A stretch of 64,000 bases of DNA from Nitrospiraceae bacterium (GTDB lineage: Bacteria; Nitrospirota; Nitrospiria; Nitrospirales; Nitrospiraceae): positions 1 through 64,000 of the forward strand of contig CAKKRE010000039.1 in assembly GCA_919902505.1 (NCBI GenBank). Direction: 5' to 3'. The notes under the pieces were generated by a model. It saw only the letters and a program-made list of their open reading frames with translations. It did no database searches and had not been told where the DNA came from. Both the position numbers and the translations under genes were made by a program. Positions 18,310 to 21,339 of the stretch are shown one piece after another (the stretch's first letter is position 1; every line of letters begins with the position of its first letter).

Positions 18310-20013
18310 TCAACGGTGAGTGCGACGTTTGGGCAGAGGACGTTTTTTTGCCGCGGGTTTACGACGACCGGCTCTGGTCGGTGTGAGCATGACAATGAGG
18401 CTTCGGATGGTGCGCACGGGATTGGGTCCGAGGGCGATGCGGACGGCCGGTCGTTGATGTGTCTGCAGTGATTGAAGATCCCCGACGGCTTGCGCCTGTG
18501 CCAGCGTGCCGAACGAATAGAACTTTCCGGGGACCGGAACGTCGGGTTTCATGCTGTCCACGAATTCTAGGAACAGGCCGCTGTTCGGACCACCTTTGTG
18601 GAGTTGCCCAGTGGAATGCAGATACCGGGGACCATAGCCCGCCGTGGTGGCGATGTGGTGGCGCCGCATGACCGCCTTGCGCAACGCTCGTATCGAGGCG
18701 TCCAGCTGAGGGCTGGGAGTCGTGTACGCCAGAATGGCCAGGTATCGATGTGGCGCCGCCTGTTCGAGTAATTGAGTCAGTGCCTGCTTGGGCGTGAGCA
18801 TCGGCAGTGAGGGGAATCGTCCCTGCGTTTCAACCTCTTTTAGCACGCGTCCTGTGTTGTCTTTGCTCTCCTGCACGTTCGGCTGATCGAACGGATGGAT
18901 GCCGAGTGCCTGTCCTGCGACCGCGGTGGCGAACTCCCAACGGAAGAACTCCCCGCCGAGGTCGTAGCGATCCGCCAGGTTCAATCGAAATACCGGATGC
19001 CCGGCCCGTTGCAGCGCGATGATGGATCGATCCAGCGCGGCATTGCGGTCGCCTTTGAGTCGAAGCGCGACGAAGAGTCGATCGGCTCCATAGGCGGTCG
19101 GGGAGGCGAGGGGCTCACCTGCCACGGGGACGATTCCGGTTCCCTCCTTCCCGGTACTTTCGGCCAGGAGTTGTTCCACCCAGAGTCCAAATGAATTGAG
19201 TGCGGGGGAGGTCAGCAGCGTGACCTTGTCCCGTCCTGCCATGGCCATCGCGGCCATCATCCCTCCCAGGGCTGCTCCCGGATTGTCTTTTGGGTGAGTG
19301 GTGTGTCGGCAGGCCTCACGCATGGCGAGCGCCCGGCTTAGGAGTTTGCTCACGTCGAGTCCCAGCAGTGCGGCGGGCACCAGACCAAAGTAGGAGAGGA
19401 CGGAGTATCGTCCGCCGATGTCCGGTTGATTGGTGAACGTGCGCCAAAACCCGCGCTCGCGCGCCAGCTGTTCGAGTCCGGTGCCGGGATCCGTGATGGC
19501 GACAAACTGGGCTCCACCGCGATTGCCTTTGGTCCGCCGGACAAGTTCCCAGAAGTGAGCGAAGAGTGACATCACCTCGATAGTTCCCCCGGACTTGCTG
19601 GCCACGAGAAAGAGAGTTCGCGCCGGTTGAATCGCTTTCGTCACCTGACGGACCCAGCCCGGGACTGTGGAGTCCAGTACCCAGAGTTTGGGGGACCCTT
19701 TGGCCGAACCAAATGTGCAGCGGAGGACTTCGGGCCCCAAGCTGCTTCCACCCATTCCGAGAAGGACGACGTCCGTAATGCGAGCTTCCCGGGCAGCCTG
19801 CGCGAAGCTCCGTAACTCGGCGAGCCCGTCCTGCATATGGTCGAGCACCGTCAGCCAGCCCAGCCGATTTTCGATTTCAGTCGGACTGGGCTTCCAGAGG
19901 GTATGGTCTCGTGTCCAGATACGCTCGATCGTATGGCTGCTCGCCAGGTCGTCTAGCGTTTTGCTGATGGTCGGGTTGTCGAGCAGGAGCGATGCAGTAG
20001 GATGGGTCGGCAT
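18310..20013 (-). CDS. pgi: Glucose-6-phosphate isomerase
   Basis: Pgi interconverts glucose-6-phosphate and fructose-6-phosphate. The SIS-fold blocks are clear: VVLLGMGGSSLGPEVL, VASKSGGTIEVMSLF, GGRYSVLSYFGLVPAALLG and the C-terminal GQLHKGGPNSGLFLEF. From the ATG at 20013 (MPTHPTASLL, with a GAGAG upstream) it has 567 residues. The upstream in-frame Met at 20097 adds 28 non-family residues. It resembles the Pgi moiety found fused to transaldolase in some bacteria, but here it stands alone. It is the first gene of the pgi-pgl-glk-rpiA operon. The C-terminal 20 residues are lysine/arginine-rich. Confidence 0.95.
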   Translation of the reverse strand: MPTHPTASLLLDNPTISKTLDDLASSHTIERIWTRDHTLWKPSPTEIENRLGWLTVLDHMQDGLAELRSFAQAAREARITDVVLLGMGGSSLGPEVLRCTFGSAKGSPKLWVLDSTVPGWVRQVTKAIQPARTLFLVASKSGGTIEVMSLFAHFWELVRRTKGNRGGAQFVAITDPGTGLEQLARERGFWRTFTNQPDIGGRYSVLSYFGLVPAALLGLDVSKLLSRALAMREACRHTTHPKDNPGAALGGMMAAMAMAGRDKVTLLTSPALNSFGLWVEQLLAESTGKEGTGIVPVAGEPLASPTAYGADRLFVALRLKGDRNAALDRSIIALQRAGHPVFRLNLADRYDLGGEFFRWEFATAVAGQALGIHPFDQPNVQESKDNTGRVLKEVETQGRFPSLPMLTPKQALTQLLEQAAPHRYLAILAYTTPSPQLDASIRALRKAVMRRHHIATTAGYGPRYLHSTGQLHKGGPNSGLFLEFVDSMKPDVPVPGKFYSFGTLAQAQAVGDLQSLQTHQRPAVRIALGPNPVRTIRSLIVMLTPTRAGRRKPAAKKRPLPKRRTHR

Positions 20014-20190
20014 AACACGCTCTCTTCCGTTAGCGGAGGAACGAATCGATGGACCTCGGCTCAATCGTATCTTAGGTTCGAGCGTGGGAAAAGGCAAACG
20101 AGGACAGATCGAAAGTTGCGTCGGCCTGTGGCAGATGGTGGAGCGCTGGATTACGGTGCAGTGGAAGGAATCGTGCGGAGGGATGGGTGT

Positions 20191-21339
20191 TTAGGTTTCT
20201 TCTTCCTGATCGCCTAAATCGGCCAATACGAGAGAAATCGAATTTTGCGATTCCAGTGCGCCGACGATGGTGACAGGCGTTCCAACAGAAACGTGATCAA
20301 AGAGCACAGCAATCTGCGGATTATCGAGGAGGATGCTGCCGTACGGTTGATCTGTGATGCCTTGTGCAATGCCATGGAGTTGGATCAGTCCGGGCATATG
20401 CTGGCTCTTGGGAATCAACCCTGATTGTTGTGCTTCCTCAAAGCGGCGTCGATCGTCGGCATTGGGATAGTCGAGAATCAGGGCGCGGAAATACGGGGTT
20501 TGTCCCGACCCGCGTTTGCGGTGGATGCGATATTCGCCTTCGGGCGTCGCGCCGTCGCCGTAGTGCTGTTTTGCCCGGATGCCTCTCGACCCCAAGCGGA
20601 TCGGATAGGTCAATATTTTTCGGCCGTTCTTGTAGAGGGACAGCACGCGGTCGGCCTTGCTGATGACAATGGCTTGCGCACGATGGGTACGCGACCACTC
20701 AATGGTTCGTTGGGCTGATTCTCGCCAGGCTGCAATGAGGTCGTCATCGGCATATCGGCCTAACTCGTTTGCCAGCAAGGCGGTTTGGGTGAGAAGAATC
20801 TTTCCTGCACGATCTGAAGCCTGGATGGCATGGTCGAACTGTCCCTGTTCGATGAACAGGCGAGCTTGTCGGACCAGCAGTTCGGTTTCAACCGGATGTT
20901 CGCCGAGTACCACACGGCTGCCGATATCTCCTACGCGGGTGTTCAAGAGGCGGAGCCGTTGCTCGACCTTGGCGAGTTTTGTTTCGGCGGCGGTGCGTTG
21001 CGCTTGGAGGCGCGTGTTCACGTCGGCCACGAGCTGCGACCCTTCGACTTGCAGGCTTTCCAGGTCGGTCTCCAGCTCATTTTCTTCCCACGGCCAACGG
21101 ACGATATTTTCCTCGGATTGAATGCGGGCTCGTAAAGAGATCCATTGGCGGGAGAATTTTGAATAGGCTTTGGGGCTGATGTCGGATGCCCGGAGCGTGA
21201 CGAGGTCGCGGTCGATGCTCTCAATGGCTTCGACCAGCTCGTCGGGGACCGTTTCGATGCACCCGCCCAGGCTCATTGCCAGGAGTCCGGCAAGGGCTAG
21301 ACTGCAAAAGGTGCGGTAAATGTGGGGCAGGCGTCTCAT
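20191..21339 (-). CDS. YkuD-fold lipoprotein lacking the catalytic cysteine
   Basis: This 382-residue lipoprotein precursor has a lipobox ending at Cys27 (LGGC), a helical middle region (about 30-210, with heptad-like stretches) and a C-terminal L,D-transpeptidase (YkuD) domain from about 220. The domain keeps KADRVLSLYKNGR, DGATPEGEYRIHRK and the LHG and VGTPV blocks. The active-site segment, normally SHGC(I/V)R, reads PYGSILL here: Cys becomes Ser335 (codon AGC at 20335-20337) and the conserved Arg becomes Leu. It is therefore unlikely to be a normal peptidoglycan transpeptidase. It may be a binding protein or use other chemistry. It stands alone between pgi and rpmH. Confidence 0.87.
   Translation of the reverse strand: MRRLPHIYRTFCSLALAGLLAMSLGGCIETVPDELVEAIESIDRDLVTLRASDISPKAYSKFSRQWISLRARIQSEENIVRWPWEENELETDLESLQVEGSQLVADVNTRLQAQRTAAETKLAKVEQRLRLLNTRVGDIGSRVVLGEHPVETELLVRQARLFIEQGQFDHAIQASDRAGKILLTQTALLANELGRYADDDLIAAWRESAQRTIEWSRTHRAQAIVISKADRVLSLYKNGRKILTYPIRLGSRGIRAKQHYGDGATPEGEYRIHRKRGSGQTPYFRALILDYPNADDRRRFEEAQQSGLIPKSQHMPGLIQLHGIAQGITDQPYGSILLDNPQIAVLFDHVSVGTPVTIVGALESQNSISLVLADLGDQEEET

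Follow-up and report, generated by a model that had tools for sequence, protein, structure and literature searches.

The locus described here raises the question of what a YkuD-domain lipoprotein does when the catalytic cysteine of its fold is missing. The window, a stretch of 64,000 nucleotides from a Nitrospiraceae bacterium, carries at positions 20191-21339 of its minus strand (on which all window features given below lie) the gene of a 382-aa lipoprotein, assigned by its ORF, its translation and its orthologues to a family that we call F0. An earlier note on this DNA had described a YkuD-domain lipoprotein with Ser335 in place of the nucleophilic Cys, and its ORF, strand and coordinates were correct. 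A lipobox, LGGC (residues 24-27, 21259-21270), in which G26 and the predicted lipidated Cys27 are invariant (n=19 sequences), is followed by a helical N-terminal domain (residues 28-212, 20704-21258) and a YkuD domain (residues 222-358, 20266-20676; PF03734, E=1.6e-13). As the Pfam score (51.9 bits) exceeds the curated gathering cut-off (23.4), the YkuD fold is not a chance match. Since the lipobox has no Asp at +2, the protein is predicted to reside in the outer membrane. The Cys of [S/T]-x-G-C, which is the mark of active YkuD enzymes, is missing: the catalytic loop reads PYGSILL (P332-Y333-G334-S335-I336-L337-L338), a motif that the earlier note had read correctly but numbered one too high (333-339), and codon 335 (20335-20337), which the note had placed correctly, is AGC on the coding strand.

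The window belongs to a Nitrospira genus of nitrite oxidisers, and F0 orthologues are found, with their frame intact, in 28 of its 29 genomes. The nearest named record is among these: Candidatus Nitrospira defluvii, with a copy that shares 96% identity with that of the window. Residue 335 is Ser in 27 of these 28 genomes (AGC in 21, AGT in six) and Gly (GGC) in one (G025). Ser also stands at the nucleophile position in the sister genus g146 (G328); the other genera of the family have Cys, the exceptions being G326, with Gly, and G390, with a recent Ser, and the codon in Cys-bearing relatives, including distant Nitrospirota, is TGC or TGT. The presence of Ser in 27 genomes, encoded by two synonymous codons, rules out a sequencing error or a recent mutation, both of which the earlier note had named as refuting its reading, and on this distribution the Cys-to-Ser change dates back to the origin of the genus or earlier. 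Distant F0 relatives were also looked for in viral contigs, where none was found.

The solved structures that best match the F0 family profile are those of DpaA, 7O21, Csd6 and Pgp2. DpaA, Csd6 and Pgp2 are hydrolases: E. coli DpaA (YafK/LdtF, PDB 8IKR) is a meso-DAP-protein amidase that frees Braun's lipoprotein, and Csd6 and Pgp2 are YkuD L,D-carboxypeptidases. The top NCBIfam match for F0 is likewise DpaA/YafK (NF040599), with 26.5 bits for the window protein and 32.9 for a Cys-bearing relative; as this is below the equivalog cut-off of 365, we call the window protein DpaA-like and not DpaA. The earlier note had taken the His and Arg of the SHGC motif to be lost alongside the Cys. However, the Cys-bearing F0 relatives read T-x-G-C and have neither residue, and their absence reflects the resemblance of the whole subfamily to YkuD hydrolases (DpaA, Csd6, Pgp2). 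This also separates F0 from LdtA-E (SHGC[IV]R), with which the window protein has the Pfam domain in common but not the Cys. Csd6 of H. pylori (4XZZ) and Pgp2 of C. jejuni (6XJ6) match the F0 profile over most of the domain, but their Cys is active and their domain architecture and cellular role differ.

DpaA is the best-matching of these structures, and like the window protein it lacks the LDT-type Arg that would follow the catalytic loop (PMC10653827). In the alignment to 8IKR, the invariant Lys257 (20569-20571) and Tyr283 (20491-20493) correspond to Lys83 and Tyr109 of DpaA; Lys83 touches meso-DAP in a docked model, and its replacement by Ala abolishes DpaA activity (PMC10653827). Unlike DpaA, the F0 clade of the window has Ser or Gly as its nucleophile residue and is a lipoprotein with an extra domain, and the equivalents of R108 and Q86 are Pro and Tyr in the window protein. 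The Cys-bearing rows have 40 positions with a conservation of 95% or more; the Ser clade retains 34 of them, including H322, K257 and D262, and His322, in the HG motif (20374-20376), is found in every aligned row. Y283 occurs in 90% or more of the Ser-clade sequences, and is Phe in most Cys-bearing Nitrospiraceae. The six altered positions are I315M, G316P, E320Q, I321L, T332P and C335S, and Q260Y is another change in the Ser clade; because of Q260Y, E320Q and T332P, the ligand preference may have shifted. Since the AlphaFold models of the full-length protein and of the YkuD domain alone, built on alignments of near-identical sequences only, were poor (pLDDT 53 and 42), we infer the integrity of the pocket from the sequence. 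With these pocket residues retained, F0 of the window genus would be expected to bind peptidoglycan, and it is likely to be catalytically inactive.

In sister genera, F0 is usually part of an operon of the order F4-F0-F3-F5, with variations in distant Nitrospirota; candidate tether operons of this kind lie at L160:6038-8458, L165:4813-7897 and L155:5547-8626. In the Nitrospiraceae, the operon sits upstream of pgi-pgl-glk, and F3 and F5 usually separate F0 from pgi; in the window, pgi (phosphoglucose isomerase, PF00342) lies downstream of F0 at 18310-20097. F3 is a canonical YkuD transpeptidase with the motif NVTHGCIRL and with LdtE, PRK10190 and PRK10260 as its top NCBIfam matches, all under cut-off; the likeness of F3 to LdtE and of F0 to DpaA is thus one of scores far under the NCBIfam cut-offs. 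F4 is a lipoprotein of ~205 aa, and in 33 of the 35 F3-bearing Nitrospiraceae rows its last residue is Lys. The profile of F4 aligns with that of F0 over 178 columns (hhalign, probability 97%, E=4e-11), which makes F4 a homologue of the F0 N-terminal domain. F5 (e.g., L165:7262-7897), which is conserved and has no Pfam match, has a 46-column N-terminal match to F3 (hhalign, probability 90%) and no similarity to the F0 profile; we would guess that it is a degenerate YkuD paralogue.

By its gene content, this operon looks like a tether of the Braun-lipoprotein type, with F3 as the candidate writer, F4 as the candidate substrate and F0 as the candidate eraser. It resembles the E. coli Lpp system in combining a mostly Lys-ended lipoprotein with an LdtE-like and a DpaA-like enzyme, but F4 matches no Pfam family above cut-off, and its linkage to peptidoglycan is putative. 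In two genomes (G057 and G279; L166, L167), F4-F0 is present as two pairs separated by a few kb; only one pair has F3 and F5, and both F0 copies retain Cys. In another (G050; L173, L174), F4 and F3 occur without F0, and so a writer-like gene can be present without an eraser-like gene.

Among 175 genomes of the family, F0 is found in 158, F3 in 120, F4 in 129 and F5 in 117. Translated searches of all 29 window-genus genomes, with many of the genomes searched being drafts, found neither F3 nor F4 nor F5, and no convincing remnant of any of the three was seen near the window gene; a Lys-ended lipoprotein and a candidate LDT writer share a locus in most sister genera and not in the window genus. 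Of the 28 genomes of the genus that carry F0, 13 have a further Pfam YkuD match; the other 15, which include the complete N. defluvii, have none. The window's own genome has a second YkuD gene (L001:1132-1992), whose SHGC motif is intact (ASHGCIGL).

The loss of the Cys follows the loss of F3 across the family. On a maximum-likelihood tree computed with the motif columns left out, there are four losses of F3 and three of the Cys, and every Cys loss falls within an F3-less lineage: the window genus together with g146 (Ser), G390 (Ser, with F3 and F5 decayed) and G326 (Gly). All 57 F3-bearing rows have Cys; of the 36 F3-less rows, 31 lack it and five retain it (G376, G392, G382, G383 and G329), so the loss of the writer does not force the loss of the Cys. 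Since the F3-less lineages make up 23% of the tree length of the family, three losses out of three would fall there by chance with a probability of ~0.013, a value calculated once the pattern was known, and an independent-pairs test comprised four pairs, too few to reach significance. The C-terminal Lys of F4 is gone in both F3-less, Cys-less genomes that retain F4 (G328 and G326), and F4 still ends in Lys in G329, which is F3-less and Cys-bearing. In these few lineages, the Cys and Lys states are what a writer-substrate-eraser module would show after the loss of its writer. Both this coupling to the dismantling of the operon and the hydrolase-like (DpaA/Csd6/Pgp2) nature of the subfamily had been overlooked in the earlier note.

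The absence of the Cys is accompanied by strong purifying selection on the domain that has lost it. In a codon model, the YkuD domain of the window genus has an omega of 0.036-0.041, the lowest measured, vs. 0.066-0.084 in three Cys-bearing clades; the corresponding values for the N-terminal domain are 0.07-0.085 vs. 0.08-0.125. All of these absolute values are rough, as the deeper parts of the tree are probably close to saturated with synonymous changes. With the Cys missing genus-wide and the constraint stronger than in Cys-bearing relatives, the earlier suggestion of a conserved non-transpeptidase role is supported.

We consider it somewhat probable that F0 of the window genus arose from a DpaA/Csd6-like hydrolase that acted as a tether eraser, and that it is now a pseudoenzyme, retained as a non-catalytic, peptidoglycan-binding lipoprotein. 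In the ancestral operon, F4 would have been an analogue of Braun's lipoprotein, F3 would have written the bond from lipoprotein to peptidoglycan, and F0, an F4-like lipoprotein domain fused to a hydrolase domain, would have erased it. The common ancestor of the window genus and g146 would have lost the writer and exchanged the Cys of the eraser for Ser; F4 would have lost its terminal Lys, the state seen in g146, and disappeared from the window genus. Once the writer was lost, F0 may have become dispensable as an enzyme, with its binding role retained in the window genus. The present protein, which keeps the lipid anchor, the His of the HG motif and the equivalent of DpaA Lys83, would bind stem peptides and not cut them, and so may serve as a non-covalent contact between the outer membrane and the peptidoglycan or as a scaffold. 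No YkuD pseudoenzyme was found described in the literature searched, which left out most subscription papers.

The constraint on the YkuD domain would also suit a protein that does not tether peptidoglycan and instead acts, without catalysis, as a regulator of other cell-wall enzymes or as a scaffold for them, a reading that we regard as unlikely. Inactive cell-wall hydrolase domains are known to act as regulators (PMC8416486, PMC10336132), and F0 is like the degenerate LytM factors, such as DipM, in having kept a cell-wall hydrolase domain after a loss of catalysis, which for F0 is probable. However, those factors have another fold and regulate amidases or lytic transglycosylases, a link not seen for F0: the genes around it in the window are sugar-phosphate genes, with no candidate partner among them. 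Its natural partner F3, the LDT-type enzyme of the ancestral operon, is gone from the genus, and in over half of the gene-bearing genomes F0 is the sole Pfam YkuD match, which also makes the regulation of true L,D-transpeptidases, as proposed in the earlier note, improbable.

Less likely still, in our judgement, is that Ser335 is a working nucleophile, the protein being a hydrolase switched from Cys to Ser or an acyl-enzyme former, for instance a slow stem-peptide hydrolase or a beta-lactam-reactive protein. The near-uniform Ser of the genus despite synonymous codon variation means that the position is constrained, and the retained H322 would fit such a reaction. There is also a precedent in the YafK-type Lpg1514, which turns over beta-lactams in a Ser-dependent manner, but it does so through Ser132, at another position and with its Cys intact (PMC13400389). 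The occurrence of Gly at this position, once inside the clade (G025) and once by independent loss (G326), disfavours the Ser-based reaction considered in the earlier note, and the neighbouring changes T332P and E320Q are not obviously activating. That the YkuD domain is instead a passenger heading for loss after the collapse of the operon is highly improbable for the window genus, since all 28 of its genes are intact in frame and the omega of their YkuD domain rejects a decaying pseudogene. Such decay is seen in genus g21: many of its F3-less genomes have a truncated F0 or none at all, and omega in its F3-less genomes lies at 0.17-0.34. Truncated F0 remnants in g21 are found at L208, L209, L210, L211 and L212, and the YkuD remnant of L208 lies in another frame.

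The pseudoenzyme reading can be taken one step further, to a view that we hold only tentatively: the dead YkuD protein conserved throughout the genus would descend from the eraser (F0) of a Nitrospirota tether module with writer F3 and substrate F4, and its non-covalent binding of stem peptides would replace the lost covalent, Braun-lipoprotein-like tether. If this is true, the family offers a natural series leading from a cell-wall enzyme to a pseudoenzyme, in which the partner transpeptidase was lost and the nucleophile disappeared in three lineages, followed either by decay, as in g21, or by conservation and presumed repurposing, as in the window genus. The operon itself would be a candidate for an outer-membrane-to-peptidoglycan tether of the Nitrospirota, with writer, substrate and eraser encoded together. 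N. defluvii, whose one Pfam YkuD match is cysteine-free, is predicted to lack 3-3 crosslinks made by YkuD enzymes.
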